From IMG/VR virus record IMGVR_UViG_3300043409_001608, positions 1 through 33,492 of that record: a stretch of DNA of 33,492 nt. One strand, 5' to 3'. A model generated the notes under the pieces. The model was not told the DNA's origin. It searched no databases and worked only from the letters and a program-made list of their open reading frames with translations. This document shows positions 1 to 33,155 of this stretch, in pieces (position 1 is the first letter of the stretch; every line of letters starts with the position of its first letter). The position numbers were made by a program, and so were the translations under genes. This DNA is from a virus.

Positions 1-353
1 CGACAGGTGAAACGCACGCGAAGCGCGGCGCAATCTGGACTTGCGCCAACCCTAGCGCAGAAGACGCCGCGAAGCCGTGCGGGATGAAAGTTTACGGAGA
101 GTTCCCGCCGCATTGTTCATTCTGCAAGGGGCAGGCCGACAACCCGGCGACGATACCCGACTTTATGGCCGACATGGATTGCCCGCATCTGCTATCAGTT
201 GCCACGAAAGAGATACCGACAGGCTGTTGCGGCGGCGGTACGACGGCTATTGAGTTTGGAGATTGTGAGCTTTTCGGCGCGTGTTCGATCGTAGGACACC
301 AAAAAACAACGGCCTGCTTTAGGTGCAAATTGCGACCGGGCGGCAGCGCATAG
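1..353 (+). CDS. Cys-rich distal tail-region protein, 5' end cut by the window
   Basis: Open reading continues in frame from base 3 to the TAG at 351-353; the first bases match the interior of a second copy at 32769-33152, which shows the full N-terminus, so this copy lacks about nine residues. It is rich in paired cysteines (CSFC, a GCC pair, a final CxxC) and could bind zinc or be disulfide-bonded. I do not recognise the family. It sits directly before a fibre-like gene, and its stop codon TAG forms part of the CATAGATA motif. Compared with the second copy it lacks a four-residue insertion near the C-terminus and differs mostly in the middle third. Confidence 0.7.
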   Translation, partial: TGETHAKRGAIWTCANPSAEDAAKPCGMKVYGEFPPHCSFCKGQADNPATIPDFMADMDCPHLLSVATKEIPTGCCGGGTTAIEFGDCELFGACSIVGHQKTTACFRCKLRPGGSA

Positions 354-356
354 ATA
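349..356 (+). promoter_or_regulatory. CATAGATA motif, candidate late promoter (copy 1)
   Basis: Exact CATAGATA, preceded by GCG, overlapping the TAG stop of the upstream gene and ending 4 nt before the ATG at 361. No Shine-Dalgarno sequence lies in front of that ATG. If it is a -10 element, transcription would start at or beside the ATG and give a leaderless mRNA. Confidence 0.55.
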
Positions 357-360
357 GAGC

Positions 361-879
361 ATGGCACAAAAGCTATTAAATTCGGCCGCGAGCACGCTAG
401 CCGCCGAGATTACGGACGCCGCTACGTCTATCGTCGTCGCAAATTCGGCTACCTTCCTGCCCGGCACGGCCGGTAGCTTCCGCGTGAAGATCGACGACGA
501 GCTTTTGATTGTTTCGTCGATCAGCGGCAACACGCTGACCGTGACGCGCGGAGCCGAGAGCACCACGGCGATAGGCCACGACGCAGGCGCGACCGTTCAA
601 GCCGTGTTGACCGCCGCGAGCCTAGCCGCCGCGATCGCCGAGAGCGCAGGCGGGGGCGGTTCGCCGATCGCTTGGAACGAGACGCCGACCGGGAGCGTAA
701 ACGGGAGCAATACCGTGTTCACGCTAGCCAATCCACCCGACGCGGGCTTGATGCTTTTCCGTTCCGGAGTTTGCTTGCGACCCGGCGCAGGGCACGACTA
801 CACGTTGAGCGGCTCGACCATCACATTCGCGACCGCGCCGGAAACCGGCGAAAACATCCTCGCAACTTACCAATACTAG
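361..879 (+). CDS. Fibre-like distal tail protein A
   Basis: 172 aa. The N-terminal half (about 1-95) is a beta-rich, Ala/Ser/Thr-rich module; a GGGG linker at about 97-100 precedes a C-terminal module (about 106-172) containing NGSNTVFTLAN and ending in a Tyr-rich ATYQY. The same C-terminal module closes the next gene (928-2220), so it is probably a shared tip or attachment domain. The start is the ATG 4 nt after a CATAGATA motif, without a ribosome binding site. A diverged second copy begins at 33160. The role as a fibre or tail-tip protein is inferred from composition and position at the end of the tail genes; no enzymatic motif is seen. Confidence 0.65.
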   Translation: MAQKLLNSAASTLAAEITDAATSIVVANSATFLPGTAGSFRVKIDDELLIVSSISGNTLTVTRGAESTTAIGHDAGATVQAVLTAASLAAAIAESAGGGGSPIAWNETPTGSVNGSNTVFTLANPPDAGLMLFRSGVCLRPGAGHDYTLSGSTITFATAPETGENILATYQY

Positions 880-927
880 CGCGCGCCCGACTTATAGGGC
901 CGGCTTGACTCGTGAAAGGTTTGAGAC

Positions 928-2220: not shown

Positions 2221-2259
2221 GACCGAACAACAGCAACCGCCGCCGAGGCGAAAAAGCAA

Positions 2260-2622: not shown

Positions 2623-2631
2623 TCGCCGCGC

Positions 2632-3567
2632 CTACGTCGCCTCGTGGAGGCCGCGAGCGAAGACGACGCTAGACGGTTCGCCGACGGCCTTTGTCGGATC
2701 GAGATAGCTAGCGACCGTAACCCGCCGCGAGCTATGGCCGAGCGCCGCCGTGGCATCGCCGCCGGCCGCTTCGAGCATCGTAGCGAATGTACGCCGCAAC
2801 GCTTGAGGCTTAAAGCGACGACCCGACGGCAACCCGGCGCGCTGCAATAACTTGCCATACCGCAGGTAGAACGCGCCCGACTTGTGACCGCGCAACCACG
2901 GCAGGGCGAACACGTCAGCGCCGCCGCCGGTATAAGGCCGGAGGGCTTCGAGGGCTTCGAGCACGACCGGCGGCAGGAAGTACGCCGCCGATTGCTTGCC
3001 ACCCTTGCGATACGCCGCCGGAATAGATAGCCACCCGTCGGCCGCGAGCCATTCCCATTTGATACCGAGGGCGGCGCTAGTACGTTCGCCGGTATACAGA
3101 AAAAGCAGATGGAGCGCCGACCACCACAGCGCCGCCGGGCTAACGCCGACGGTTCCGGTCGTCGTGCGGCACGCAGCTAGGAGCTTATCGAGTTCAGCAC
3201 GCCCCCAGGAGCGCGGAGCGATCGACGCAGGCGCGAGCGTCGGCACGTCTACGAATTCCGGTATATGGCGCTTCCTAGCCGCATAGTTGGCGATCGCTAA
3301 GAGCTTCGAGCGCTCTTTGTCGACCGTATGACCGGCGCGACCTTGCGCGAGCCGATGCGCAAGGAAGCCGCAAAGCACCTCGTCGCAGAGATCATCGAGC
3401 CGCGCAGGCCGTTCGAGATATTCGCCGAGACGTGCAATCGTGAGCCGATGAAGAATCGAAGTTTGCGCCGACTTGCCGAGCAAGCGACGCGGCGCGAAGA
3501 CTCGCGCGAAATAATCAGAAAGGAGCATACAAACGGAGGTGTTGGGCGTGTTGTTTGTGCGACTCAT
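2632..3567 (-). CDS. int: Tyrosine recombinase / phage integrase
   Basis: 311 aa from the ATG at 3567, where an SAM-like core-binding half (about 10-110) is followed by the catalytic half. Visible active-site residues: Arg I in TGER (R162), a Lys in the beta hairpin (K191 in KGGKQ), Arg II in QALRR (R258), His III in LGHSS (H278) and the nucleophile Tyr in SYLDP (Y288). The usual His of HxLR is Gln (Q255). It should integrate and, with the divergent excisionase-like protein, excise the prophage. An in-frame extension to 3834 runs through the intergenic repeats and looks non-coding. Just before the ATG is the 12-bp palindrome AGGGTTAACCCT, a possible operator. Confidence 0.9.
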   Translation of the reverse strand: MSRTNNTPNTSVCMLLSDYFARVFAPRRLLGKSAQTSILHRLTIARLGEYLERPARLDDLCDEVLCGFLAHRLAQGRAGHTVDKERSKLLAIANYAARKRHIPEFVDVPTLAPASIAPRSWGRAELDKLLAACRTTTGTVGVSPAALWWSALHLLFLYTGERTSAALGIKWEWLAADGWLSIPAAYRKGGKQSAAYFLPPVVLEALEALRPYTGGGADVFALPWLRGHKSGAFYLRYGKLLQRAGLPSGRRFKPQALRRTFATMLEAAGGDATAALGHSSRRVTVASYLDPTKAVGEPSSVVFARGLHEAT

Positions 3568-3579
3568 AGGGTTAACCCT
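3568..3579. promoter_or_regulatory. Perfect 12-bp palindrome before int
   Basis: AGGGTTAACCCT lies immediately upstream of the int ATG (on the - strand). A perfect palindrome abutting a start codon could bind a dimeric regulator or cap the int ribosome binding site. No second copy was seen nearby. Confidence 0.35.
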
Positions 3580-3670
3580 TAAGCATTGCACACAATCCGT
3601 TGACGTGAGGGAACTTTCTCCCCCTGTTGTGATGATGCGCGGCGGATGTTCCTGTCCACCGCATTTGAGC

Positions 3671-3683
3671 GCCGACCGTCGGC
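3671..3683. repeat. Short inverted repeat in the int-xis interval
   Basis: GCCGACCGTCGGC: two 6-bp arms around one base. It lies between int and the excisionase-like gene, so it may be an operator half-site pair or part of the attachment region. Confidence 0.3.
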
Positions 3684-3691
3684 ACTCACAC

Positions 3692-3783
3692 ATTGAACTA
3701 CGCCAATCGGGCCGGGCGCGATTCGTCGCGGTAACGGTTTTGCTTCCGTTACTTGTCACCCCGGCCCGGTTGGCTTGTTCAAT
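3692..3783. repeat. Large nested inverted repeat between int and xis
   Basis: The left arm 3692-3716 (ATTGAAC, then GCCAA, then CGGGCCGGG) pairs with the right arm 3760-3783 (CCCGGCCCGG, TTGG, GTTCAAT) with only a few mismatches. Inside is a second perfect hairpin, 3731-3737 GTAACGG against 3746-3752 CCGTTAC. The 254-base interval 3568-3821 otherwise holds no gene. It could be attP arm and core sites, a regulator-binding region or a structured RNA; the sequence does not decide which. Confidence 0.5.
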
Positions 3784-3821
3784 ATTTCCCATAGCGGTAC
3801 TATAAGCAGGAGCAAACCCCG

Positions 3822-4028
3822 ATGGAACTTCCAAAGATGATGATTTCAGTAGAGACGGCCGCCGAGCTTATTGGGGTAACCGTTTCCCGCGTGCGCCAGA
3901 TGCTACGCGCCGAACAGTTAGCCGGCGTCAAACTCAGCGAACGAGCCTGGATTGTTGACGAGCGCTCCGCAAAGCGAGCCGCTAAAACGCCGCATTCTGT
4001 AGGGCGGCCGCGCACAGGCTCAAAATAA
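3822..4028 (+). CDS. Excisionase-like small HTH protein
   Basis: 68 aa. Residues 8-52 match the helix-turn-helix pattern of the excisionase/MerR-type family: ISVETAAELIGVTVSRVRQM followed by a wing ending in AWIVDERSA. The basic tail (SKRAAK, GRPRTGSK) would contact DNA. AGGAG lies 9 nt before the ATG. It diverges from int across the repeat-rich interval, the usual place for a directionality factor or a lysogeny switch regulator. It might instead act mainly as a transcription regulator of int; no separate CI/Cro pair was recognised in the window. Confidence 0.65.
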   Translation: MELPKMMISVETAAELIGVTVSRVRQMLRAEQLAGVKLSERAWIVDERSAKRAAKTPHSVGRPRTGSK

Positions 4029-4041
4029 ATCGCAAGAGACG

Positions 4042-4069
4042 TTGACGCTATTTCCGTTATCGGTAATAA
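4042..4069 (+). promoter_or_regulatory. Candidate sigma-70-type early promoter
   Basis: TTGACG (4042-4047), 16 bp, then TAATAA (4064-4069), in the 191-base gap before csrA. GTTAT-CGGTA-ATAAC across 4056-4070 is an inverted repeat overlapping the -10, a possible operator. It would drive the early operon. Read by eye only. Confidence 0.4.
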
Positions 4070-4219
4070 CCAACGCCCGACGGTTGACGGTTCGCCCGTG
4101 ACAAGGCGAGCCGCCTAACCCGCAGCAGCAAAAAGCTATCTAACAGCGCGCGGCTTTCTACCGCTTGGCACGATGCCACGCCCGCGCGTCTCTCCCCTCA
4201 CGCAAAGGACTGCGCGCCC

Positions 4220-4405
4220 ATGCTCGTTCTAACCCGCAAAGTAGGCGAACGAATTTTAATCGACGGCGGCATTGTGCTGATTGTTACCAGCATCGAACCA
4301 AGCCGCGTCGCTATCGGCATCGAAGCGCCGCGAGCGATCGGCGTACACCGCGAGGAAGTAGCCGCACGGATGAACCCGCCGGCGTCGGACCATCGGAAGG
4401 ACTAA
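4220..4405 (+). CDS. csrA: CsrA/RsmA-family RNA-binding translational regulator
   Basis: 61 aa, full length for the family. It begins MLVLTRKVGERI, as CsrA proteins do, and has the conserved GIEAPRAIGVHREEV segment with the RNA-contacting Arg at position 44. CsrA dimers bind GGA-containing hairpins near ribosome binding sites and block or enhance translation. The ribosome binding site AAAGGA is about 10 nt upstream of the ATG. It is the first gene of the early operon, so it may act early to shift host mRNA use or to control phage leaders. The C-terminal ten residues (NPPASDHRKD) are variable in the family. Confidence 0.92.
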   Translation: MLVLTRKVGERILIDGGIVLIVTSIEPSRVAIGIEAPRAIGVHREEVAARMNPPASDHRKD

Positions 4406-4456
4406 CCGACGCCGCGCATTTTGTTTGAACCCATCACAACGCAAGGAGCGTGAACC

Positions 4457-4648: not shown

Positions 4649-4699
4649 CCGCCGGACGATCGAAGACCACCATTTTAACCCACGAGAAAGAGCGACCGC

Positions 4700-5557: not shown

Positions 5558-5701
5558 CAGCACGAGACGCAATCGGGCGACCCGAACGCGAACGGGCGCG
5601 CGGTGACCGAGGGAAACACCGCACGACGTTAGGACCGACGGCAGGCGCAACCCTGCCCAGATTGCAACTTACACCAGAACCAAGAGAAGGAGCTTTTGAG
5701 C

Positions 5702-14023: not shown

Positions 14024-14055
14024 AGCCCGCTAGGAGCGATTCTAGCGGGCTTTTC
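14024..14055 (+). terminator. Strong intrinsic terminator closing the early operon
   Basis: Perfect 10-bp stem AGCCCGCTAG / CTAGCGGGCT with an 8-nt loop, followed by TTTT. It lies 33 nt after the resolvase stop. The next ATG (14057) is only a few bases beyond it. Confidence 0.85.
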
Positions 14056-14056
14056 T

Positions 14057-14392
14057 ATGCGCCGACGGTTACCGCCGAGGCCGCGCGACTACTGGACAGG
14101 CGCAACTATTCAAATCGGGAGAGGTTGCCCAAGATTATTAGACGACCTGCACCGCCGCACGCCCGGTTGCGACTTTATGCCCCTCGTTCCGACCGCCGCC
14201 GGCTTCCGAATCACAGGCCCGCTAGCGATCGGACGCAGCGCGGTAGCGATCGACGGTTACGACTTCGAGCAGATCGCCGCCAAGGTTATCGAGCGTTGGC
14301 GAGCGCTGGCATTCGAGACGACGGGCGGCGAGTGCCGCGAAGCGACCGACGCACAAATAGAAATCACTTTAGGGAGGCCGCCGCGTGATTGA
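14057..14392 (+). CDS. Protein of unknown function directly after the terminator
   Basis: 111 aa if the ATG at 14057 is used, but that ATG follows the T-run of a terminator and has no ribosome binding site. A shorter form from a downstream start, such as the ATG at 14177, is possible. The N-terminus is Arg/Pro-rich; the rest looks folded (FRITGPLAIGRSAVAIDGYD, then a helix with IERWRALAF). No family recognised. Its end overlaps the next gene by 8 nt. Confidence 0.5.
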   Translation: MRRRLPPRPRDYWTGATIQIGRGCPRLLDDLHRRTPGCDFMPLVPTAAGFRITGPLAIGRSAVAIDGYDFEQIAAKVIERWRALAFETTGGECREATDAQIEITLGRPPRD

Positions 14393-14765
14393 GTACATGC
14401 AAGCAGGTTACGCCGCCGCAACATCGCCGACGAATTTTAGAATTATCTTCGCCGTGCTCGTGGCCGCCGTCGGCGCTTATCTGGCATTCGGCGAGCACCT
14501 AGCCGCATGGTGGAAGAAGACGCAAGCCGACATTGCCGCGAAGAAGACCACGAGCAGCAGCGCCAAGGCCGCCGACGCCAACGCCGACCTCGTGGCAGGC
14601 TTCGAGCACGTTCTAGCGCTGAAGGTAATTCAAGAGCGCCAGCAACTACGCAGCCCCGAAGAAATCGAAGCCGCTTTTATGGCCGGCCTTAGTTCGATTT
14701 ATAAGCCGAGCACGACGCCGACGAAGACGCCGAGCGCCGACCTTCCGCCGCTTAGTTCCATGTAG
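14385..14765 (+). CDS. Single-span membrane protein
   Basis: 126 aa from GTG 14385 with AGGGAGG 7 nt upstream. Residues 18-40 (FRIIFAVLVAAVGAYLAFGE) form one membrane span; the remainder is a soluble helical part (ADLVAGFEHVLALKVIQERQ) and a Pro/Thr-rich tail. It is the first clear member of a row of small membrane proteins flanking a cysteine peptidase, probably a lysis or envelope-acting cassette. It could be a holin-type or anchor protein; the sequence does not decide. Confidence 0.6.
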   Translation: MIEYMQAGYAAATSPTNFRIIFAVLVAAVGAYLAFGEHLAAWWKKTQADIAAKKTTSSSAKAADANADLVAGFEHVLALKVIQERQQLRSPEEIEAAFMAGLSSIYKPSTTPTKTPSADLPPLSSM

Positions 14766-14822
14766 AGCGCCAGACGCCCGACCGACCGACACGAGAACAC
14801 GACCACAACGGAAGCCGCAGAC

Positions 14823-15230
14823 ATGAACCGCAGAACCTTTGCCGGGCTTCTGTTGCTAGCCGTCGCCGCTTTCCTAGCCGTCGGGCAGGGAACGCTAACC
14901 GACTCGATCGGACCACAAGCCGCGCCGCGCGTGCTCGTGATCGAAGAAAGCGCCGAGCGTGGAAAGCTGACGCCCGAGCAACTATCTATTCTGCACGGGA
15001 CCGCGCCGGGCACATTCGCCGCGATCGCCGCCGAGGCGTGCGGGCCGAGCGGCTTTATCGTGCTCGACAAGGACACCGACCCGGCCAAAATGCCCGACTG
15101 GGTGCGCCTAGCATTTTCGCAGCCGTCGCAAGTCGTGCCGCGATTTATCATCGTGCGCGGTAACCGCCTTACGCTGCACGCGCTGCCGAAGGATACCGCC
15201 GCCGCGATCGAACTATTGAAAAGAGGCTAG
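14823..15230 (+). CDS. Membrane-anchored or exported thioredoxin-fold-like protein
   Basis: 135 aa. The N-terminus (NRRTFAGLLLLAVAAFLAVG) is a signal peptide or signal anchor. Residues 35-135 show a thioredoxin-like order of strands (VLVIEES, GFIVLDKDTD, VVPRFIIVRGNRLTLHAL) with a cis-Pro-like VP, but no CxxC, so redox activity is unlikely. It lies just before the peptidase gene and may assist it at the envelope. Fold assignment is tentative. Confidence 0.55.
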   Translation: MNRRTFAGLLLLAVAAFLAVGQGTLTDSIGPQAAPRVLVIEESAERGKLTPEQLSILHGTAPGTFAAIAAEACGPSGFIVLDKDTDPAKMPDWVRLAFSQPSQVVPRFIIVRGNRLTLHALPKDTAAAIELLKRG

Positions 15231-15234
15231 CGCC

Positions 15235-16050
15235 GTGCTTTATAAAAACGAGATCGTATACGACGACAGCAACGCCGCAGAATTGACGCCGGACGAAGAA
15301 GGCGTCTTAATGGTAAACGGCGAAGCGCGCCACTTGTGCGCCGTTATGCCGAACGCCGCCGCCGTGCCGTCGATTACGCTGGCCGCCGCCGGTATCCCGA
15401 AGATACCGCGCAACGAGTGGAGCGCCCGACTTAAGGAGCAGACCGAACGCCGCGCCCGCGTAAGCGACTTTTGCGACTTCGACCCGCTCAACCAAGGCCG
15501 GCACCTATCATGCTGGGGCGAGGGCACCAACGGAGCAGCGCGAACGCTTCGACGAATTCAGCGGCTACCGTTTGTGGCGCTTTCTACGTCTTCAATAACC
15601 GTGCCGGTTACGGGAGGCGTCGACCGTGGAGGTTGGGAAGGCGATAGCCTGCGCGTCGCGACCGAAAAGGGACTTTGCCGCGACGCTATTTGGCCGACCA
15701 ACGCGATAGATACGCGCTACATGCGACGCGAAGACGTGGCCGCCGACCGCGCGAACTTTAAGGTTCTCGAATGGATTAACGCCGGGCGCGACTTCGACAC
15801 CTACGCGACGTGCTGCCTACAAACCATGACAGGCCCATTCGCCTATACGTGGATGCGCCACGTTATGCAAATTTGCGACCTCGTGGAAATCGAGGCCGGT
15901 AGCTTCGGACTTCGCAACCGAAATTCTTGGGGCGCGTGGGGCGCGAAGAACGACCACGGAAAGTATGGCTTCGCAGTTTATCGCGAAGGCCCGCGCGGAA
16001 CGCCGACGAGCGGCTACATGGCCCGACAAATTACCGCCTACATCGGTTAA
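15235..16050 (+). CDS. Papain-like (C1A-type) cysteine peptidase
   Basis: 271 aa from GTG 15235, with AGAGG 8 nt upstream. The four papain-type active-site positions can be seen in order: Q87 (LNQGRH), C93 (SCWGEG, compare SCWAFA), H209 (RHVMQICDLVE) and N230 in the hallmark NRNSWGAWG. A GGWEGDSLRVATEKGLC segment matches the central GG...GLC part of the family. An N-terminal region of about 60 residues may be a propeptide-like part. In this cassette of membrane proteins, and with no lysozyme or amidase visible, it may act on the host envelope at lysis or entry; it could instead process virion proteins. Confidence 0.72.
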   Translation: MLYKNEIVYDDSNAAELTPDEEGVLMVNGEARHLCAVMPNAAAVPSITLAAAGIPKIPRNEWSARLKEQTERRARVSDFCDFDPLNQGRHLSCWGEGTNGAARTLRRIQRLPFVALSTSSITVPVTGGVDRGGWEGDSLRVATEKGLCRDAIWPTNAIDTRYMRREDVAADRANFKVLEWINAGRDFDTYATCCLQTMTGPFAYTWMRHVMQICDLVEIEAGSFGLRNRNSWGAWGAKNDHGKYGFAVYREGPRGTPTSGYMARQITAYIG

Positions 16051-16064
16051 GGGAACGCGAACGC

Positions 16065-16406
16065 ATGTCCGAGATATTTACCTTTGCGGAACATCTTATC
16101 GACAAGGTGGGGCCGCTTGTCGTCTTCCTCGTCGCGCTCGTGGCCGTCGGGTTGTACGTCGCCTACCGCGTTAGTGTTTGGTTTCAGCCGTTAGCCGAAC
16201 GACTGGTAAGCGCGCACCTAAATTTTGTAGAGACGACCGCCGGGCTACTGCCGACGATCGACAAGAAGGTAGAAGACCACGCGCGACAAAACGACGAGCA
16301 CGCCGAGCACCTACAAGCGCACACGCAAAAACTGCACGAGATACACGCCTACGCGCGCGAGATACATCAAACCGTTGTAAAGCCGGGACGATGCGAGACT
16401 TCATAG
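16065..16406 (+). CDS. Membrane protein with cytoplasmic coiled coil, holin/spanin-like layout
   Basis: 113 aa from the ATG at 16065 (AAGGGA upstream). One strong span (about 14-36, LVVFLVALVAVGLYVAYRV), then a helical, His/Glu-rich segment (VEDHARQNDEHAEHLQAHTQ) likely forming a coiled coil. The size and layout resemble phage holins or inner-membrane spanins. It follows the peptidase gene. Role inferred from layout and position. Confidence 0.55.
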   Translation: MSEIFTFAEHLIDKVGPLVVFLVALVAVGLYVAYRVSVWFQPLAERLVSAHLNFVETTAGLLPTIDKKVEDHARQNDEHAEHLQAHTQKLHEIHAYAREIHQTVVKPGRCETS

Positions 16407-16558
16407 ACTCATTCTGCTTTCACTTATTCGGGCACTCGATTATTGCCGCATCATTCGGCACCGATTCGCTAGCCGGCGTGGCGCTAGGAATCATCGTCGC
16501 ACTAATCGGCCCGCCGCCGCCGCCGGAACAGACCGAAACCGACCACAAGCCGAGGTAA
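16391..16558 (+). CDS. Very small membrane protein
   Basis: 55 aa, starting inside the end of the previous gene (16-nt overlap, GGGACG upstream). It has a hydrophobic centre (SLAGVALGIIVALIGPPPPP) giving one span and a charged, Pro-rich tail. Member of the lysis-like cassette; no family recognised. Confidence 0.5.
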   Translation: MRDFIDSFCFHLFGHSIIAASFGTDSLAGVALGIIVALIGPPPPPEQTETDHKPR

Positions 16559-16562
16559 CCAC

Positions 16563-17234
16563 ATGGCCGCATTTATCACAATCGCCGTTTCAATCCTGAC
16601 GCAGTTATTCGCCGCCGCCGTCGCCATTTTCCGCGCTATCCCGTGGACGAGTTGCGTACCGCTTTGGCTCGTGGCCGTGCTCACCGTCGCCGCGTGGCAC
16701 TTCGGAGGCGCTTCGGACGAGAACCGAGCCGACGGCGTGGAGCGTACCCCGATTGTGCGCCCCGATCGCCCGCGTATTTTCCCGATTTTTAACCGAGCAC
16801 CCGCCGCGAGCGCCGCCGATTGTATTTGCGTCGACTGCACTTGCATTGAATGCCCGACCGATTGCCCGACGCCCGACGACACGAAGAAAGCGCACATCGT
16901 AAACGCCGACGGAACGCAAGAACACAGGCCGCTAACGCCCGACGAAGAAGAACAGCTAGCGCCAATGACCGAGGCCGAATTCATCGCGTTTCAACAGTGG
17001 TTGAAGACGCAGCCGCGCCGCTCTTATATCGACGGCCGACTTTTACCCGTGCCCGATCCAATCAGCACACCGCAAGACGACGAGCAGGCCGCCGACGAAG
17101 AACCGAAGGCCGCCGCAGCCGTTGCACCACGAACACAAGCGCCGCAGCCGTCGCGCAGTTATCGCGCCGCCGGCCTATTTGGCTTCCGCCGCTTGCCGGG
17201 CGCTAGCTCGTGCGGGCCGAACGGTTGCCGCTAA
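16563..17234 (+). CDS. Membrane protein with a dense cysteine cluster
   Basis: 223 aa. There are two hydrophobic segments near the N-terminus (about 3-25 and 33-47), then a soluble domain with CICVDCTCIECPTDC at about 87-101, a spacing fit for zinc or iron-sulfur binding or for disulfides if exported. The C-terminal 110 residues are acidic, then Pro/Ala-rich, ending SSCGPNGC. The family is not recognised. It ends the cassette that starts at 14057. Confidence 0.55.
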   Translation: MAAFITIAVSILTQLFAAAVAIFRAIPWTSCVPLWLVAVLTVAAWHFGGASDENRADGVERTPIVRPDRPRIFPIFNRAPAASAADCICVDCTCIECPTDCPTPDDTKKAHIVNADGTQEHRPLTPDEEEQLAPMTEAEFIAFQQWLKTQPRRSYIDGRLLPVPDPISTPQDDEQAADEEPKAAAAVAPRTQAPQPSRSYRAAGLFGFRRLPGASSCGPNGCR

Positions 17235-17297: not shown

Positions 17298-18173
17298 ATT
17301 TTACAAGCCGCAACACCCGACGCAGCCGCCGACGATAAACCGTCGGGCTACTTCGACCGCATCACCGCCGGCGAATTGTTCGAGCAGTACCGCGAGGCGC
17401 ACGCGACCCGCGAGAAGCTGACCAAACGCGCCGCCGTGCTCGTGCGGAGCGCCGCCGCCGTGCGCCGCCGCAAGACGCAGCAAACCGAACGCCGGACGCC
17501 GAGAAAGACCAAGGCCAAGAAAGAACCGCCGCGACGCCGCGAGCTATCGCTATCGCACATACGCGCCCGACTGCGCACCGTAAACCGCCGCTATGCCAAG
17601 TTGCGCGAGCAAGTCGCCGCCGTCGGTTATTCGGTGGCTTCGCACTACTGGCCGCGCTTTTACATTCGACAACCCCGCGAGCGCGACCACCACGAGGCCG
17701 CCGCGCACTCGATCGACATACCGCCGACCGACGACGCCGATTGTATCCAGGCCGCCGCCTGCCGCGTGCTAGCCGTCGCGCACCGCTTCGCGCCCGATCG
17801 CGGGACGCTTCTAAACTTCCTGACGAAAGTTTGTCAAAACGAATTCCGCCTCGTGATCCGACGAACGCAGCACCGCAGCATAGCGCTGGCCCGCTACGCC
17901 GACGCCATGCGAGCCGACCCGCAGAAGCGCGAGCAGCAGGCCCGCCACGAGGCCGCCGGAGTAGAACCGCCGCCGTCGGTTGTCGTCGTCGCCGACCTAT
18001 CGAAGCTGGAGCGCCCGACCGCCGCCTACGCGACTTATAGCCGCGACGACGAAGCCGCCGCCGTACACTTCCGCGAACACGAGCAGACGCCGAGCCGCGA
18101 ACCCACGAGGCCGCTAACCATGCGCCGGCTACTTGAGCACCGCCGAGGCCGCCTACTATTGGCGAACGCATGA
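17298..18173 (+). CDS. Sigma-factor region-2-like protein, candidate late transcription factor
   Basis: 291 aa from an ATT at 17298, chosen because GAGGGAG lies 6 nt upstream and the residues from there read like coding sequence (LQAATPDAAADDKPSGYFDR). The next in-frame start, TTG 17376, has no ribosome binding site. Residues about 145-190 (DDADCIQAAACRVLAVAHRF, then DRGTLLNFLTKVCQNEFRLV, IRR) follow the ECF sigma region 2 pattern: acidic-D-x-x-Q, RFxPxRG, FLxxVxxN, RR. No clear region 4 is visible, as in T4 gp55. The N-terminal 90 residues are strongly basic. It lies at the border of early and late genes, fitting a late-gene activator. An unrelated helical protein remains possible. Confidence 0.5.
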   Translation: MLQAATPDAAADDKPSGYFDRITAGELFEQYREAHATREKLTKRAAVLVRSAAAVRRRKTQQTERRTPRKTKAKKEPPRRRELSLSHIRARLRTVNRRYAKLREQVAAVGYSVASHYWPRFYIRQPRERDHHEAAAHSIDIPPTDDADCIQAAACRVLAVAHRFAPDRGTLLNFLTKVCQNEFRLVIRRTQHRSIALARYADAMRADPQKREQQARHEAAGVEPPPSVVVVADLSKLERPTAAYATYSRDDEAAAVHFREHEQTPSREPTRPLTMRRLLEHRRGRLLLANA

Positions 18174-18445
18174 CCGAGCACATTAAGCAGTTCAGACCGC
18201 CGACATTGAAGACCGCGACGCCCGCAGGCCGTCGGGCCGATATTGCCTTTTATATGTCGCCGCGCTGGAAGGCGCTACGAAAGCTATTCATAGACCGCAA
18301 TCCGTTGTGCGAAGTCTGCGAACGAGCGATCGCGAACCAAGTACACCACAAGAAGCCGCGCAAGGATTACCCCGAGCTTTCCTACGAGTGGTCGAACCTG
18401 CAAGCGCTTTGCCGACCTTGTCACTTGAAGCAAGAAGAACGCTAG
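18170..18445 (+). CDS. HNH endonuclease near the terminase
   Basis: 91 aa, ATGA overlap with the previous gene. C47/C50 (CEVC), H59/H60 (QVHHKKP), N76 (SNLQALC) and C81/C84/H85 (CRPCH) form the treble-clef HNH site. HNH proteins of this size next to terminase genes help the terminase cut at cos in HK97-type phages, and a repeat-rich non-coding block lies just downstream. The start and length are normal for the family. Confidence 0.88.
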   Translation: MTEHIKQFRPPTLKTATPAGRRADIAFYMSPRWKALRKLFIDRNPLCEVCERAIANQVHHKKPRKDYPELSYEWSNLQALCRPCHLKQEER

Positions 18446-21769: not shown

Positions 21770-21774
21770 CGCCG

Positions 21775-21782
21775 CATAGATA
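21775..21782 (+). promoter_or_regulatory. CATAGATA motif, candidate late promoter (copy 2)
   Basis: Exact motif in the 17-base gap after the large terminase stop, ending 4 nt before the portal ATG. No ribosome binding site precedes that ATG. Confidence 0.55.
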
Positions 21783-21786: not shown

Positions 21787-23553
21787 ATGCTAAAAGCACT
21801 TATCCGCCGCGTGTTCCGATCGCTCGAAAATCCTTCGCAATCGCTCAGCGGTTGGCGCGCCGGGCCGAACGTGCTAGCCGGCGTCGATATTGATGAAACG
21901 TCGTGCCTATCTCATTTGCCGGTATACGCCGCCGTCAACCGAATCGCTAGCGACATGGCGCTACTAGACCCGCAACTAGAAGACACGCAGGCCGACGGAA
22001 CGCGCCGCATTGCATCCGAGCACCCGCTAGACCGGATTCTCTCAGTGACGCCGGACGGGGAAATAACCTCCGACCGTTGGCGGCAATCACTATTTGGGCA
22101 CGTTAGAACGTGGGGCAATTCCTATCACGAGATTGAATACGACGTGACGACGTGGACGGTAAAGGCCGTGCACATTTTGAACCCTAGCCGGATGAAGGTA
22201 AACCGCACCGAGCTAGGGACGATCGACTACGAGTACCACGACCAGCGCGGCGGCGTCACGCACCTGCCGCCGTGGAAGGTTCTGCACTTCGCCGGGCTAG
22301 GCTTCGACGGCCTCGTGGGATATTCGCCAATCGCACTAGCGCGCGAGACGCTTGGACTAGGCAAGGCCGCCGACTTATTCGGCGCGTCGTTCTTCGGACA
22401 AGCCGCACGCCCCGCCGGCATGTTGAAGACCACCAAGAGCCTAAGCGATCAGGCCGCTAAGCGACTGCGCGCCGACTTCGAGCAAATGTATGCCGGCGTA
22501 TTCAATACCGGGCGCATCATCGTAGGCGAAGACGGGATGGAGTTTGTACCTATCTCGATTCCGCCGAACGATGCGCAGTTTATCGAAACGCGCCGCATGA
22601 GCATTGAAGACGTAGCGCGGCTATTCGGCATTCCCGCGCACAAAATCGGAGGCCCGGCGGCTACGGGCAACATCGAAGAACAAAACATCGACTACCTACA
22701 AAGTACGCTTCTCGGGCTTTGTAATATGTTCGAGGGCGAAATTAGGTTGAAGCTGTTAAGCGGCCCAGGCGATCGAACGCTTCGAGTCGCGCACGACTTC
22801 AAAAAGCTATTGAAGGCGAACGCCGCCGCGCGAGCGCAGTACAACGCGACCGCGATTCAATGGGGTTGGGCGACCCGCAACCGAGTCGCGCAGGATGAAG
22901 GCTACGCACAGTACAAGGGCGGGGAAGCGCCTTTGCTTCCGCTTAATATGGTACAGATCGGCCCCGACGGCTTGCCGCTTCCGAACCCGACGCCGCCGCA
23001 ACCGGCAACGCCGACGACGAGCGCCGCCGCTTCGACTTCGACCGAGGTAAACGACGGCCGCAGCATCGGGCCGGCTAAAGCATTCGGCGCGGAATATCTC
23101 GAAGCGCTCAACACACAAACGGCGCTACTTCGGTCGCTCGTGAAACCGACGCCGCCGACGCCGGACGCGAGCGCCGCCGCGCTCGAAGCCGTTAAGGCGA
23201 TCGCCCGCGCCGAGCTATGCCGATCGCTACGCCGCGAGGCCGCCGCAATCGCCCGTGCCGCCGCAAAGCCGAACTTTCGCGAAGCGATCCCCACGCTATG
23301 CGAAGAACACCGCGCCTATCTGGCCGAGGTTATGGCCCCGAGCCTAGCCGCGCTGGCAACCGTGGGCGGTATGCAGATCGACGCCGCCGCGCTGGCCGCC
23401 TCGTGGAGCGAGCGCAGCGCCGCCGACCTCGTGGAACTCGAAGCCGTGACGATCGCAGGGCAGCGCCCGGCCGCCGTTGCCGGACTGGCCGAGCTATGGC
23501 GATCGCGCATAGATACGGTATGGCAAACGCAAGCAAAGAGCGCCGCTATCTAA
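21787..23553 (+). CDS. Portal protein, HK97-type
   Basis: 588 aa. Residues 1-400 carry portal features (SHLPVYAAVNRIASDMALLD, WGNSYHEIEYD, MKVNRTELG, then MSIEDVARLFGIPAHKIGGP and NIEEQNIDYLQSTL). It forms the dodecamer through which DNA enters and to which the tail connects. The C-terminal 170 residues are Ala/Pro-rich, then helical (SLRREAAAIARAAAKPN), longer than many portals. The ATG at 21787 follows the CATAGATA motif. The end overlaps the protease gene by 34 nt in another frame. Confidence 0.94.
   Translation: MLKALIRRVFRSLENPSQSLSGWRAGPNVLAGVDIDETSCLSHLPVYAAVNRIASDMALLDPQLEDTQADGTRRIASEHPLDRILSVTPDGEITSDRWRQSLFGHVRTWGNSYHEIEYDVTTWTVKAVHILNPSRMKVNRTELGTIDYEYHDQRGGVTHLPPWKVLHFAGLGFDGLVGYSPIALARETLGLGKAADLFGASFFGQAARPAGMLKTTKSLSDQAAKRLRADFEQMYAGVFNTGRIIVGEDGMEFVPISIPPNDAQFIETRRMSIEDVARLFGIPAHKIGGPAATGNIEEQNIDYLQSTLLGLCNMFEGEIRLKLLSGPGDRTLRVAHDFKKLLKANAAARAQYNATAIQWGWATRNRVAQDEGYAQYKGGEAPLLPLNMVQIGPDGLPLPNPTPPQPATPTTSAAASTSTEVNDGRSIGPAKAFGAEYLEALNTQTALLRSLVKPTPPTPDASAAALEAVKAIARAELCRSLRREAAAIARAAAKPNFREAIPTLCEEHRAYLAEVMAPSLAALATVGGMQIDAAALAASWSERSAADLVELEAVTIAGQRPAAVAGLAELWRSRIDTVWQTQAKSAAI
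23508..23515 (+). promoter_or_regulatory. CATAGATA motif, candidate late promoter (copy 3)
   Basis: Exact motif with GCG in front, lying inside the 3' end of the portal gene and ending 4 nt before the protease ATG. Its conservation within coding sequence, at the same spacing as intergenic copies, argues against chance. Confidence 0.55.
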
Positions 23554-24098
23554 CGCAAGAACTTCGAGCGAAGCGCAGCAACGGCGGCGCGACGATCGAA
23601 GGCTACGCCGCGAAGTTTGGCATTGTCAGCGAAGACCTAGGCGGCTTCCGCGAAGTCTTAATGCCGGGTTGCTTCGACTTGGACAAGTCGCCCGACGTTA
23701 TTTGCAACTACGAACACGACGATTGCGCGATTCTAGGGCGCACATCGAGCGGCACGCTAAAGATTGCCGCCGACGAGGTAGGGCTACGCTTCGAGTGCGC
23801 GGCACCGCCGACCGCACTAGGCAACGACGTTTGCGCGTTGATCGAACGCGGGGACTTAAAGGGCAATTCTTTTGCCTTCGAGGTAGCCGAGGGCGGCGAA
23901 GAATGGGGCAAGGCCGACGACGGTTTACCGCTGCGCAAAATCACGCGCTGCCTTCTGTACGACGTGGCCATAGTCGTTCACCCCGCCTACGCCGACACCG
24001 AGCTAGCGCTACGCAGCTTGGCGCAGGCGCAGACGCCGCCGACCCCGCGAAACGTGAATTGTGCGGCACGGCTACGGCTTGCCGAGGCTTGCGCATAG
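23520..24098 (+). CDS. Prohead protease, HK97-type (U35)
   Basis: 192 aa. GYAAKFG and FREVLMPGCF near the N-terminus, then the catalytic His in NYEHD (H66) and Ser in GNSFAF (S117), with DVAIVVHPAYADTE at the end of the fold. It cleaves the scaffold domain of the capsid protein during maturation. The ATG at 23520 lies 4 nt after the CATAGATA motif, inside the portal gene. Its stop TAG is part of the next CATAGATA copy. Confidence 0.93.
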   Translation: MANASKERRYLTQELRAKRSNGGATIEGYAAKFGIVSEDLGGFREVLMPGCFDLDKSPDVICNYEHDDCAILGRTSSGTLKIAADEVGLRFECAAPPTALGNDVCALIERGDLKGNSFAFEVAEGGEEWGKADDGLPLRKITRCLLYDVAIVVHPAYADTELALRSLAQAQTPPTPRNVNCAARLRLAEACA

Positions 24099-24101
24099 AT
24101 A
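24094..24101 (+). promoter_or_regulatory. CATAGATA motif, candidate late promoter (copy 4)
   Basis: Exact motif with GCG in front; its TAG is the protease stop codon. It ends 69 nt before the capsid ATG, which has its own ribosome binding site (AAGGTG), so the mRNA would carry a leader. Confidence 0.55.
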
Positions 24102-25445: not shown

Positions 25446-25487
25446 TCAAACCCTATCCGGCGGCTTGGCGTCGTCGGTCGCTCCGAG

Positions 25488-25521
25488 GCCCGGCGGGAGT
25501 AAATCCCCGCCGGGCTTTTTC
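25488..25521 (+). terminator. Intrinsic terminator after the capsid gene
   Basis: Perfect 10-bp stem GCCCGGCGGG / CCCGCCGGGC, 9-nt loop, then TTTTT. Seven bases later comes a CATAGATA motif, so transcription is stopped and apparently restarted. Confidence 0.88.
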
Positions 25522-25527
25522 GTGCGC

Positions 25528-25535
25528 ATAGATAT
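25528..25535 (+). promoter_or_regulatory. CATAGATA motif, candidate late promoter (copy 5)
   Basis: Exact motif with GCG in front, directly after the capsid terminator and 39 nt before the ATG at 25575. This is the clearest case for promoter function, because the genes downstream need a new start of transcription. Confidence 0.65.
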
Positions 25536-27401: not shown

Positions 27402-27408
27402 CGCCGCG

Positions 27409-27416
27409 CATAGATA
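27409..27416 (+). promoter_or_regulatory. CATAGATA motif, candidate late promoter (copy 6)
   Basis: Exact motif with GCG in front, between the tail terminator and tail tube genes, 33 nt before the tube ATG. AGGA in the leader serves as ribosome binding site. Confidence 0.55.
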
Positions 27417-27449
27417 GACCGACGCACACAACGCACAGGATCAAGACAA

Positions 27450-28990: not shown

Positions 28991-28999
28991 AAGGCGTGG

Positions 29000-29007
29000 C
29001 ATAGATA
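29000..29007 (+). promoter_or_regulatory. CATAGATA motif, candidate late promoter (copy 7)
   Basis: Exact motif, here preceded by TGG instead of GCG, ending 4 nt before the tape measure ATG. No ribosome binding site. Confidence 0.55.
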
Positions 29008-29011
29008 GAAC

Positions 29012-30796
29012 ATGGCACGCTCAGCGTTAAACGTACTCGTCGGCGCAACGATAACCCCGCTGCAAAAGCAGCTAAAGAAGGGCGTCGGCCTCGTCAAAGA
29101 CTTTGGACGAAGCGCGAGCAAAGCCGTGGCCGGTTCCGGCGGCATCGGGGGCGCGATCGCCGGGCTAGTAGGGGGCGTCACCGTCGCCGCCGGCCTCAAA
29201 ATGGCGATAAGCAAATATCGCGAGGCCGAAACGGCAGGCGCACGGCTCACCAGCACGCTAAAGGCCGGAGGGAACGCCGCCGGAGTATCGACCGGGCAGG
29301 TTCTAGGCTTCGCTAAGCAAATGCAAGCGACGACCGGAATAGCCGTTAGCGCGACTATGGCCGCCGCCGCCGAGCTAGGCAAGGTCGACAACATCAAAGG
29401 CCCGAACTTCAACGAAGCGATTAAGCAGGCCGCGAACTACGCCGCAGTAGTCGGCGGCGACGTGACGAGCGCGAGCAGCACACTAGCCGGAGCGCTGAAG
29501 AACCCGCGCGAAGGTTACCTAGAATTGGCCGCCGCCGGCGTGCGCTTTTCCGATGCGCAGATTGACGCGCTGCAGACCATGCAAGCGACGGGCGACATGG
29601 CCGGAGCGCAAAACGTAATTCTCGAAGCGATGCGAGCGCAGTACGAAGGCGCAGCCGAGGCCGCAGGCGGAACGCTCGACGGTTCAATAAATAAACTTTG
29701 GGGCAGCGTAACAAATTTAGCCGCAACCATCGGCGAAGCGCTGGCCCCGTATCTAAAGGCCGCCGTCGGAACTCTAACCGAGTGGACGGCAGGCTTAGAC
29801 ACCGCCGCGACGAAAAACGGAGCTATCGAAGCCGCCGCCGTCGCCGTCGGTTGGGTTGTCGACGGTATGCAAGTCTTAAACGCCGCGTGGAAAGCAGGCG
29901 AGGCGATCGCCGCCGGACTTATCGCCGTCCTAACGACCGGGTTTAAGTGGGCGACGCAGGCCGTTCTAGCCGTCGTCGAAGCGCTCGAAATGATCCCCGG
30001 CACAAGCAAGACGAGCAGCGCCGCTATCAAAGGATTTTTGGCCGAGGTTGAAAACTTCGAGGCCGCCGCGTACCAAAACACCGCCGACGCCGCCGACGAA
30101 GTAGAAAAGGCGTGGGCGAAGCCGTGGGCGTCGGCCAAGACCGATACATTTTTTACGAAGGTTGCGACCGACACGAAGAAGACCGCCGCCGCCATGACCG
30201 AGCTAGGCAGCGCGGTTAAGGCCGGCCCCGTGGCCGCAATGAAACAGTTGAGCGCCGAAGCGATCGAAGCGCAGAAAAGCGCTACCGGCATGGTGCGCGA
30301 GATGAAGCAGAAGCTAGAGAGCTTCGGGCTAGACGACTGGCAGGCCCAGGCGAACGCGCTGCAGAAGAAAGGCGCGACCGCCGGGCAAGTCGGCGAGGTT
30401 AAGAAACTCGGCGCACAGTTGAAGGGCAAAGAACTAGCGCAATCGCTAGAAACGCCGTTTGAGAAATTCGGGCGCGAGATGAAGAAGTTGAGCGACCTAG
30501 CCGCCGCCGGCGGTATCGGAGGCGTCGACCTAGAACGCGCTAAGACGGCGCTAGTTAGCGACCTGCAAGGCGCACTACCCGACGAGAAGATAAGCGCAGG
30601 CGGGCCGATCATGGCCGGCTCACAAGAAGCGAGAAGCGCGTTGTTGAGTTACCAAGGATTGTCGCGCAAGAACGACCCGGCGACGCAGGCGCTAAAGCTG
30701 CAAGAGCGCCAAGCAGAAGACCAGAAGCTAGCCACGTTGTACCTACGCAAACTGGCGACCGGCGGCGGCGGGCTATTACCCGCGCCGGCATTCTAA
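29012..30796 (+). CDS. Tape measure protein
   Basis: 594 aa, the longest virion protein apart from the portal. Mostly helical and Ala-rich, with a Gly-rich hydrophobic span (IGGAIAGLVGGVTVAAGLKM) at about 45-64, a conserved AELGKVDNIKGPNFNEAIKQ region, and a Lys/Glu-rich C-terminal half. It sets tail length and passes into the host at injection. At about 0.15 nm per residue the tail would be roughly 90 nm, an estimate. The ATG follows the CATAGATA motif. Confidence 0.9.
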   Translation: MARSALNVLVGATITPLQKQLKKGVGLVKDFGRSASKAVAGSGGIGGAIAGLVGGVTVAAGLKMAISKYREAETAGARLTSTLKAGGNAAGVSTGQVLGFAKQMQATTGIAVSATMAAAAELGKVDNIKGPNFNEAIKQAANYAAVVGGDVTSASSTLAGALKNPREGYLELAAAGVRFSDAQIDALQTMQATGDMAGAQNVILEAMRAQYEGAAEAAGGTLDGSINKLWGSVTNLAATIGEALAPYLKAAVGTLTEWTAGLDTAATKNGAIEAAAVAVGWVVDGMQVLNAAWKAGEAIAAGLIAVLTTGFKWATQAVLAVVEALEMIPGTSKTSSAAIKGFLAEVENFEAAAYQNTADAADEVEKAWAKPWASAKTDTFFTKVATDTKKTAAAMTELGSAVKAGPVAAMKQLSAEAIEAQKSATGMVREMKQKLESFGLDDWQAQANALQKKGATAGQVGEVKKLGAQLKGKELAQSLETPFEKFGREMKKLSDLAAAGGIGGVDLERAKTALVSDLQGALPDEKISAGGPIMAGSQEARSALLSYQGLSRKNDPATQALKLQERQAEDQKLATLYLRKLATGGGGLLPAPAF

Positions 30797-30814
30797 CCGA
30801 GGCAGAGCAACGCT

Positions 30815-31699
30815 ATGGCCGTCGTTGACGTTATCGAGCAGACGCACCTACGCGCAGGGACCGCGCCGTATAACGCGCCCGGTACTGCCGTGCGCGTGTT
30901 CGCCGTAATAACCAACAACAAGGCCGACGGCGACGGCGTTGTGTTGTCGACGACGTACACCGGCGCAGACGGTAGCGTTGTACCGACTCTGCGCGACCCG
31001 CACCCGACGCGCACTATCTTGCGCGTATCCGAGAAGTCGGCGCGGCAGGCCGACGACAAAAACGGCCTTATCTGGGAGGTAACCGTAAGCTATGCCTACC
31101 TTCCGCCGTTCTATTACCCGTGGGACGAACCCGCTATCACCAGTTGGGACGCTTCGAGCGTAGACACGCTATTCGAGCGCGACATAGACACCGGGAAACA
31201 TATCAAGAATAGCGCCGGGCAACCATTCGACCCCGCGCCGACCGTGTTGCGTTACGACAGCGTGTTGACCGTCACGAAGAACCTAGCGAGCTTCGCCGAT
31301 TCCGTTATCAAGACCTACGGAGGGACGACGAACAACGCGACGTTCTACGGCCACGCGCAAGACTACGTTATGTGCATTCCCCCGAAGGTATCCGATCAAC
31401 TCTACACGTCGCCGCTTGGCGTTATCACGACGTACAAAGCCGTGACGCTTCAATTCATGTTCCGCAATCCTGATATTGGTATCAGTTGGCAACCGAAGCT
31501 ATTAGACGCCGGATTCTGCAAGCTAGTTAGCGGTAGCCTCGTGCCAATCACGATAGGAGGCCGCGAGCCGACGACGCCCGTACCGCTCGACGGTTCCGGT
31601 ATGCCGCTATCACCGCCGACGGGAACGCCGACGTTTATTGACGCGCGCGGCTATCCGCGCAGCACGTTCGCCACACTTCTAGCGCTCGTGGGGTTGTAA
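30815..31699 (+). CDS. Distal tail protein of unknown family
   Basis: 294 aa, beta-rich, with an N-terminal strand-rich part (RTILRVSEKSARQADDKNGL, WEVTVSYAYLPPFYYPWDEP) and later NNATFYGHAQDYVMCIPPKV, LQFMFRNPDIGISWQPKLLD and a Pro/Gly-rich end. It directly follows the tape measure gene, where distal tail or tail-tip proteins lie. I do not recognise the family. The end shares one base with the next ATG. Confidence 0.6.
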   Translation: MAVVDVIEQTHLRAGTAPYNAPGTAVRVFAVITNNKADGDGVVLSTTYTGADGSVVPTLRDPHPTRTILRVSEKSARQADDKNGLIWEVTVSYAYLPPFYYPWDEPAITSWDASSVDTLFERDIDTGKHIKNSAGQPFDPAPTVLRYDSVLTVTKNLASFADSVIKTYGGTTNNATFYGHAQDYVMCIPPKVSDQLYTSPLGVITTYKAVTLQFMFRNPDIGISWQPKLLDAGFCKLVSGSLVPITIGGREPTTPVPLDGSGMPLSPPTGTPTFIDARGYPRSTFATLLALVGL

Positions 31700-32037
31700 T
31701 GGCCGAGCAACTGTACGGCCTTACGAAGTCGCAGCTAGGCCGCCTCGTGGCTGCGCTTAAGCGGCTCGACGCAATCCCGCACGGCCAGGGCGGCGGCGCG
31801 AGCAACTATCGGCCGCCGGCGTACAACGTCGCCAAGTTTAAGTTGCAAGAAGACCTAACCGACGCAGGCGAGGCCGCCGCTAAGTTTTGGTATCAGAGCA
31901 CCGAGGGCGACGAAGTACAAATTCAGCCGTTCGGCGTGGGCGGCACGGTCCCCGAAGGCGACATAATCGCCGCTTTTTGGTGGGACGGAGAATGGCACTT
32001 TCTAGCCGCCGAGGCTTGCCCGGGCGCAGGCGAATAA
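31699..32037 (+). CDS. Small tail-region protein
   Basis: 112 aa; ATG overlaps the previous stop (TAATG). A helical start (LTKSQLGRLVAALKRLDAIP) is followed by a Gly-rich linker and beta strands (GDIIAAFWWDGEWHFLAAEA). It may be a tail-tip adaptor. The next gene starts directly after the stop. No family recognised. Confidence 0.6.
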   Translation: MAEQLYGLTKSQLGRLVAALKRLDAIPHGQGGGASNYRPPAYNVAKFKLQEDLTDAGEAAAKFWYQSTEGDEVQIQPFGVGGTVPEGDIIAAFWWDGEWHFLAAEACPGAGE

Positions 32038-32772
32038 ATGGTAATTCCTTCGCGCTGTTGTTGCGGCTCGTGCGCCATCTTCGAGGGCGACCCCGACCCG
32101 GCTTATCCGGCAACCAATCTAAGCACCGCATACAACGCGCCCGCGTTTATGCAGATGGTCTTGAGCGGCAACGCGCATACTTCGCCTTGGCTCAACCCAT
32201 CGCCGCCGGTATTCCCCGCGACTTACATACCGCATTGCTGCAACGATTTTAACGACGTAGTGCCGCTATACAGCACCGCCTACGGACAGGCGAGCACGTC
32301 GCCGATTTTATTCGCCGCGCCCGTGCTGACCTGCCCGCCGATTCCGATCGAGCGCGTGAAGTGCCTTTTGCAATGGTGGGGCGCTTTTGCGTGCGAGAGC
32401 GATACGTCGCCCGGGACCATGCTATCTACGTCGTCGTTTGCGCGTTTTGTTTCGACGTTCTTTTTTAAGGACAAGGATAACGACGAGGTTTGGCTAGGCG
32501 TCGGGCTAATGGCTTGGGATTCTTTGCCGGCTGGCTCAGGCTATCACTCCGTAAGCGCGGCCGCATTCGGCTACCTAAACCTAGGCGTCGGCTTAGTCGA
32601 TCCGACCGGCGGCCCGTGGGTTGTACCTATCACGAGTCCGGCGGCTTGTGAGCTAAACCCCTTTGTCGATGTGCTCGACGCTCGATTAAGTGGCAGCACC
32701 GCCGCGAATATGTGGCGCGTAAATTCATGTTGGGACACCACGCCCGGCGTTGTGACGATTACCCCGCTATGA
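32038..32772 (+). CDS. Cys-rich tail-region protein
   Basis: 244 aa starting immediately after the preceding stop. It begins with a tight Cys cluster (SRCCCGSC) and has later CC and single Cys residues (IPHCCND, AACEL, VNSCWD), then a beta-rich body (VWLGVGLMAWDSLPAGSGYH). It could be a disulfide- or metal-stabilised tail-tip or receptor-binding part. Its TGA overlaps the next ATG. No family recognised. Confidence 0.6.
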   Translation: MVIPSRCCCGSCAIFEGDPDPAYPATNLSTAYNAPAFMQMVLSGNAHTSPWLNPSPPVFPATYIPHCCNDFNDVVPLYSTAYGQASTSPILFAAPVLTCPPIPIERVKCLLQWWGAFACESDTSPGTMLSTSSFARFVSTFFFKDKDNDEVWLGVGLMAWDSLPAGSGYHSVSAAAFGYLNLGVGLVDPTGGPWVVPITSPAACELNPFVDVLDARLSGSTAANMWRVNSCWDTTPGVVTITPL

Positions 32773-33152
32773 CCTGCAATTTTGTTGCGACAGGTGAAAC
32801 GCACGCGAAGCGCGGCGCAATCTGGACTTGCGCCAACCCTAGCGCAGAAGACGCCGCGAAGCCGTGCGGGATGAAAGTTTACGGAGAGTTCCCGCCGCAT
32901 TGTTCATTCTGCAAAGGGCAGGCGAACAACCCGGCGACAATACCCGACTTTATGGCCGACATGGATTGCAAGCACTTGCGCCGCATCGGCACCAAGGAGA
33001 TAGCAACAGGATGTTGCGGCGGCGCGACGACGGCTATTGAGTTTGGAGATTGTGACCTATTCGGCGCGTGTTCGATCGTAGGACACCAAAAAACGACCGC
33101 CTGTTATCGGTGCGAATTCCGACCCGCAAACCAAGCAGGCGGCAGCGCATAG
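32769..33152 (+). CDS. Cys-rich distal tail-region protein, complete copy
   Basis: 127 aa, 12 cysteines, beginning MTCNFVATGETHAKRGAIWT from the ATG that overlaps the previous stop. CSFC, GCC, GDC, GAC and a final CYRC suggest one or two metal or disulfide sites. It is the full-length relative of the truncated gene at the start of the window: identical over the first 127 bases shared, then diverged, with a four-residue insertion (ANQA). The TAG stop is part of CATAGATA copy 8. Confidence 0.7.
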   Translation: MTCNFVATGETHAKRGAIWTCANPSAEDAAKPCGMKVYGEFPPHCSFCKGQANNPATIPDFMADMDCKHLRRIGTKEIATGCCGGATTAIEFGDCDLFGACSIVGHQKTTACYRCEFRPANQAGGSA

Positions 33153-33155
33153 ATA
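33148..33155 (+). promoter_or_regulatory. CATAGATA motif, candidate late promoter (copy 8)
   Basis: Exact motif with GCG in front, overlapping the TAG stop and ending 4 nt before the ATG at 33160: the same arrangement as copy 1, conserved although the surrounding sequence has diverged. Confidence 0.55.

Follow-up and report, generated by a model that had tools for sequence, protein, structure and literature searches.

A repeated nine-base motif, GCATAGATA, as a probable -10-only late promoter of virion genes in a temperate siphovirus

The viral DNA stretch IMGVR_UViG_3300043409_001608 (33,492 nucleotides, analyzed whole and called the window here) contains a short motif, GCATAGATA, repeated exactly in front of head and tail genes. 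The explanation that best accounts for it, and that we regard as probable from the sequence, is that GCATAGATA serves as a directional, -10-only late promoter for these genes and gives rise to two types of mRNA, one leaderless and one carrying a leader with a Shine-Dalgarno (SD) sequence. A sequence-only reading of the same DNA had already suggested a -10-only late promoter and leaderless mRNAs; that suggestion still appears to be the best one and agrees with the SD pattern, while the number of loci behind it had to be lowered. The phage itself is, by its gene content, a temperate HK97-type siphovirus of ∼33 kb.

Sequence, copy number and placement of the motif

The octamer CATAGATA occurs eight times without mismatch in the window, only on the + strand, at 349, 21775, 23508, 24094, 25527, 27409, 29000, and 33148. 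The sequence-only reading had the count and seven of these coordinates right and placed the remaining copy at 25528. Dinucleotide shuffles give a chance level of 0.25 copies, with a maximum of 2 in any of 100 shuffles. The base 5' of the octamer is G in all eight copies, making the 9-mer GCATAGATA the exact core; GCG, earlier thought to precede seven copies, precedes six, and G is the only constant base. When the copies are aligned, no invariant column is found within 25 nt on either side of the core and there is no conserved -35 element. One-mismatch versions of the 9-mer are few in the genome, lie scattered on both strands, and never stand at a virion-gene start, so that there is little sign of degenerate copies. 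The exact copies are placed as follows.

348..356, + strand: GCATAGATA 5' of the fibre gene, allele a (locus shared with 33147-33155); ATG at 361, gap of 4
21774..21782, + strand: GCATAGATA 5' of the portal gene; ATG at 21787, gap of 4 (5 in the relative G001)
23507..23515, + strand: GCATAGATA within the 3' end of the portal gene; head maturation protease ATG at 23520, gap of 4
24093..24101, + strand: GCATAGATA at the protease stop codon; major capsid ATG at 24171, with SD, 69 nt on
25526..25534, + strand: GCATAGATA directly after the capsid-gene terminator; gene at 25575, with SD, 40 nt on
27408..27416, + strand: GCATAGATA before the major tail protein gene; ATG at 27450, with SD-like AGGA, 33 nt on
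28999..29007, + strand: GCATAGATA 5' of the tape measure gene; ATG at 29012, gap of 4
33147..33155, + strand: GCATAGATA 5' of a fibre-like gene, allele b; ATG at 33160, gap of 4

The first and last copies were found to represent a single locus. Positions 1-693 and 32788-33492 align from end to end with 91% identity. The match is perfect over 127 bases at one extreme and over 99 at the other, values that assemblers often use as k-mer sizes. This is as expected if the contig of a circular genome ran twice through a strain-variant bubble, once at each end. The genome is thus most likely a circle of ∼32.79 kb whose contig ends carry two strain alleles, and it was classed as linear because the terminal repeat is not exact. 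A close relative, IMGVR_UViG_3300017747_003074 (G001, 18.4 kb), which does not cover the part of the window holding open reading frame (ORF) 17376-18173, runs without interruption from tail-gene homologues through a single motif copy and the fibre gene and then reaches counterparts of the integrase and helix-turn-helix (HTH) region (window 2623-4218). Since the contig ends overlap and G001 crosses the junction with one copy, the copies at 349 and 33148 represent alternative alleles of the same locus. Eight independent copies, as the sequence-only reading had it, were therefore rejected in favor of seven loci.

All seven loci lie inside an 11.4-kb arc of the 32.8-kb circle (p ∼0.01), and the genes downstream are those for the portal, the protease, the major capsid protein, the product of the gene at 25575, the major tail protein, the tape measure, and the fibre; no copy of GCATAGATA is present in the early region of the window. 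The earlier statement that all copies are on the + strand and before virion genes thus holds, as do two others: one copy lies inside the portal gene, in its 3' end, and three provide the TAG stop of the preceding ORF (ORFs ending at 353, 24098, and 33152). Five copies, which become four of the seven loci after the alleles are merged, end exactly 4 nt before an ATG. This spacing, noticed earlier, is correct for the window and fails as an absolute rule, given the 5-nt gap at the portal gene of G001. At the remaining three loci, 33 to 69 nt separate the motif from the ATG.

Promoter signals, predicted transcripts and a candidate reader

The octamer occupies positions -12 to -5 relative to the four close ATGs, and the genes that start there have no SD sequence (permutation p = 5e-5 for -16 to -4 and 0.005 for the whole 20 nt), confirming what the sequence-only reading had noticed. 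The three genes with a more distant ATG have normal SD sequences. A distance of 33 to 69 nt is beyond the range of a start-codon element and therefore favors a promoter over a translation signal. All seven window loci have a purine as the fifth base past the octamer, and at 6/7 a pyrimidine precedes it; in G001 the purine is found at six of seven sites, the portal copy being displaced by one. Transcription starting on this purine would account for both groups of genes, the leaderless ones without SD and the leadered ones with it.

Two further features bear on transcription.

25486..25521, + strand: intrinsic terminator 3' of the major capsid gene, formed by a hairpin and then TTTTT; also conserved in G001
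3775..3803, + strand: early sigma-70-type promoter of the HTH gene, TTGTTC-N17-TACTAT (conserved in G001 as TTGCCG-N17-TACAAT)

The terminator has a folding energy of -30.4 kcal/mol in the window (z of -5.0) and of -34.5 kcal/mol in G001 (z of -6.7), and the motif copy at 25527 starts a few bases past it. Downstream transcription must therefore restart at this point or depend on antitermination. A consensus scan for sigma-70 promoters with -10 and -35 elements (TTGACA-N16-18-TATAAT-like) found none on the + strand between 18000 and 33492, and CATAGA, from the motif, matches TATAAT at only 3/6 positions.

The terminase, portal, capsid, and tape measure proteins of G001 are 84 to 96% identical to those of the window. 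The motif is present at all seven equivalent sites of G001, always on the + strand, with none on the - strand and none elsewhere in its 18.4 kb. Upstream of the fibre gene the DNA of the two phages is unrelated and homology starts at about AGCGCATAGATAGAGCATGG; because it starts at the motif, the motif belongs to the downstream fibre gene. At the other six copies the homology continues through the motif. The end of G001 (18149-18412) consists of a 63-bp tandem repeat with nearly identical units, which probably broke the assembly.

We hold with some confidence that the motif is a promoter, and lean, less firmly, toward leaderless mRNAs at the four close sites. In the proposed mechanism, GCATAGATA would act as the sole conserved promoter core, placed at -10 and unaccompanied by a -35 element, and transcription would start on the purine 5 nt past the octamer. 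This purine would coincide with the A of the ATG in the genes for the portal, protease, tape measure, and tail fibre, giving a leaderless mRNA. In the other three genes (those for the major capsid protein and the major tail protein, and the gene at 25575), a start at this purine would leave a leader of ∼29 to 65 nt with an SD sequence. More tentatively, the motif might be read by the host core RNA polymerase together with a phage sigma-region-2 protein, for which the window offers one candidate.

17376..18173, + strand: ORF of a candidate late sigma factor with weak similarity to sigma-70 region 2; 5' of HNH-TerS-TerL

Codon usage of this ORF is gene-like (0.24; antisense ORF, -0.35). Upstream, its reading frame continues uninterrupted, with codons of a similarly gene-like usage, as far as an ATT (17298-17300) behind GAGGGAG, a rare start codon that the gene may use. 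Residues 117 to 191 resemble sigma-70 region 2 (NCBIfam sigma70-ECF TIGR02937, E = 2e-4; Pfam Sigma70_r2 PF04542, E = 0.0093, segment 0.0014), both matches falling below the curated cutoffs, and shuffled and reversed versions of the protein gave zero sigma matches. The position 5' of HNH-TerS-TerL is that of the RinA/Ltr late regulators in staphylococcal phages (PMC13123087). A sigma factor consisting of region 2 alone would fit a -10-only promoter, as T4 gp55 does (PMC2988020). No relatives of the ORF were found in viral contigs or annotated phages, a search with a lysis-region protein as bait found no relatives covering the early genes, and among annotated distant relatives of the terminase, portal, and capsid no named sigma factor lies beside the terminase. 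On these data, the chances that the ORF encodes a sigma region 2 protein are roughly even, and its role as the recognizer of the motif is plausible though somewhat doubtful.

Alternative explanations and known systems

Several observations weigh against a phage-specific late promoter of this kind. Its conservation is to be read against a late region with ∼89% DNA identity to G001, where 53% of all octamers are unchanged, which makes it suggestive by itself and not proof. Downstream of the octamer the DNA is not rich in A and T, in contrast to T4. Probable lysis genes at 14057-17234 (a role assigned by eye only) have no motif copy. The motif is known from two phages only: six phages at 41 to 47% capsid identity and several at 29 to 37% show no clear excess of CATAGATA, so that the search on both strands of relatives proposed in the sequence-only reading bore out the motif in G001 and not at this distance. 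As for the reader, the sigma match is below cutoff and Pfam places the ferritin-like family MiaE slightly above it, hhalign of the ORF against eight sigma factors gave nothing above decoys, and a fold search was negative with AF2 models too poor to decide.

The repeated octamers that we inspected in the relatives at 29 to 47% capsid identity are mainly inside coding sequence, and no equivalent repeated signal was found in these phages. Searching IMG/VR for GCGCATAGATA-N4-ATG returned 62 stretches, a number attainable by chance, among which G001 alone had several same-strand copies matching the pattern; GCATAGATAGARCATGGC was matched in G001 and one 107-kb contig only.

The same promoter could be read by a housekeeping or alternative sigma factor of the host, perhaps with a phage activator, instead of a phage sigma factor. 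We consider this possible, if rather unlikely. No phage RNA polymerase was recognized among the proteins searched, the sole sigma candidate is weak, and an activator working with host sigma is common in temperate phages (RinA/Ltr, PMC13123087). However, CATAGA shares only half of its positions with TATAAT and has no -35 partner, the early promoter of this same phage is of the ordinary sigma-70 type, and no second conserved site for an activator is present within 25 nt of the motif. The motif could also act in translation, within the mRNA next to the AUG, where it would be read by the ribosome or a phage RNA-binding protein in the manner of the Start-Associated Sequences (SAS) of cluster K mycobacteriophages. 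The near-fixed 4-nt gap to an ATG without SD at four of seven loci would suit such an element, and the SAS is likewise asymmetric, confined to one strand, and 3 to 7 bp before starts (PMC3203893). We nevertheless find it improbable: the other three copies are 33 to 69 nt away from genes that have their own SD, the motif contains no SD core, and the copy next to the terminator requires a promoter and not a translation signal.

A site at which a long late transcript is cut, or a recombination boundary or module linker, would explain why copies mark gene borders and why the fibre-gene copy coincides with the breakpoint of homology between the window and G001. Yet homology is uninterrupted across the other six copies, the copies inside the portal gene and beside the terminator are left unexplained, and a single late transcript would end at the capsid-gene terminator unless there were antitermination. 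We judge this explanation very improbable.

Late promoters of the T4 family, TATAAATA, are -10-only octamers that depend on gp55, gp33, and gp45 (PMC2988020). They resemble the present motif in having one AT-rich octamer, here at the inferred -10 position, no -35 element, and many copies before virion genes. The differences are that our octamer matches TATAAATA at 6/8 positions, is invariably preceded by G, lacks an AT-rich segment after it, and has a gap of 4 compared to about 5, in a temperate 33-kb siphovirus. The T4 reader gp55 is a sigma region 2-only protein, whereas here there is a candidate only, and neither the gp33 co-activator nor the gp45 sliding clamp was recognized among the proteins searched against PHROGs and Pfam, which included part of the small ORFs. 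In Thermus phage phiYS40, middle and late mRNAs are mostly leaderless (PMC3594737), and P23-45 has extended -10 middle and late promoters (PMC7403470). The window is similar in that late genes are predicted to have promoters without -35 elements and, as for the late mRNAs of phiYS40, some of the mRNAs would lack leaders. Both phages, however, use host sigma (in P23-45, gp39 displaces sigma region 4) and have no GCATAGATA, and leaderless mRNAs are predicted here in only 4/7 units. Our two-part scheme would work like T4 late promoters combined with leaderless late mRNAs of the phiYS40 type; membership in the T4 system is not claimed.

The cluster K SAS has the consensus GGGATAGGAGCCC, with AGGAG, 3 to 7 bp before starts (PMC3203893). 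Like our motif, it is a short asymmetric one-strand repeat a few bases before ATGs that sometimes contains the upstream stop codon. It differs in its sequence, in its AGGAG, and in lying by non-structural genes, where it is thought to act in translation (PMC3203893); ours has no AGGAG or SD core, precedes structural genes, and is far from the ATG at 3/7 loci. A TA-like -10 box ∼12 bp before the start codon is a published mark of bacterial leaderless genes (PMC3160421), and the present motif is similarly placed for transcription to start at the ATG, with no SD at four genes. Unlike those boxes, its core is not TANNNT and is an exactly repeated, phage-specific sequence. RinA/Ltr of staphylococcal phages activate one promoter that yields one long late transcript (PMC13123087), compared to seven promoter-like sites here.

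The statement in the sequence-only reading that no phage system of this kind had been described was too strong, given the -10-only promoters of the T4 family (PMC2988020) and the leaderless mRNAs of phiYS40 (PMC3594737). Both halves of the scheme are known from other phages. What is new is that a 33-kb temperate siphovirus is predicted to unite them, a single exact motif serving leaderless as well as leadered genes; among the papers searched, none has CATAGATA together with phage and promoter.

Small temperate siphoviruses whose late control has been studied mostly rely on a single late promoter assisted by either an activator or an antiterminator. If our reading is true, a ∼33-kb temperate siphovirus would have a dispersed, exactly repeated late promoter, which would yield leaderless or leadered mRNA by its distance to the ATG alone, an easily tested case, and the late genes of close uncultured relatives could be recognized from the motif alone. 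One could go further and propose that a small siphovirus unrelated to T4, with its own region-2-only sigma and seven -10-only late promoters for leaderless and leadered mRNAs, evolved a T4-style switch independently, with the mode of translation set by promoter placement; this larger claim is speculative and seems unlikely to us.

Gene content of the phage and minor observations

The proteins of the window were annotated by PHROG and Pfam searches, in which small ORFs were covered in part only.

2632-3834, - strand: integrase
4220-4405: CsrA homologue (PF02599, E = 9e-18), considered as a ligand of the motif, which lacks GGA
5881: exonuclease VIII
10304: DNA methylase
11625: replication protein
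13478: RuvC
18170: HNH, followed by TerS
20225: TerL
21787, 23520, and 24171: portal, protease, and major capsid protein, followed by connectors
27450 and 29012: major tail protein and tape measure, with fibre-like proteins

Bacterial genomes were scanned with the terminase and capsid for a prophage that might reveal the host, and the sole match was a distant relative of the capsid in a Clostridiales metagenome-assembled genome. The ORF at 15235-16050 looks by eye like a papain-like cysteine peptidase (N-S-W-G-A-W-G near the C terminus), possibly a lysis enzyme, with zero PHROG or Pfam matches. A 12-pair hairpin followed by TTTCT, at 14024-14056, ends at the start of the 14057 gene, near which a second transcription unit, without CATAGATA, probably begins. 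Across the whole window, and compared with zero-order expectations, GCGATCGC (20 versus ∼1) and CGATCG (60 versus 10.6) are enriched, and CCGCGG (0 versus 27), GGATCC (0 versus 10.6), and CCWGG (20 versus 113) are depleted, a site bias that hints at avoidance of host restriction. The phage CsrA homologue might regulate phage translation.

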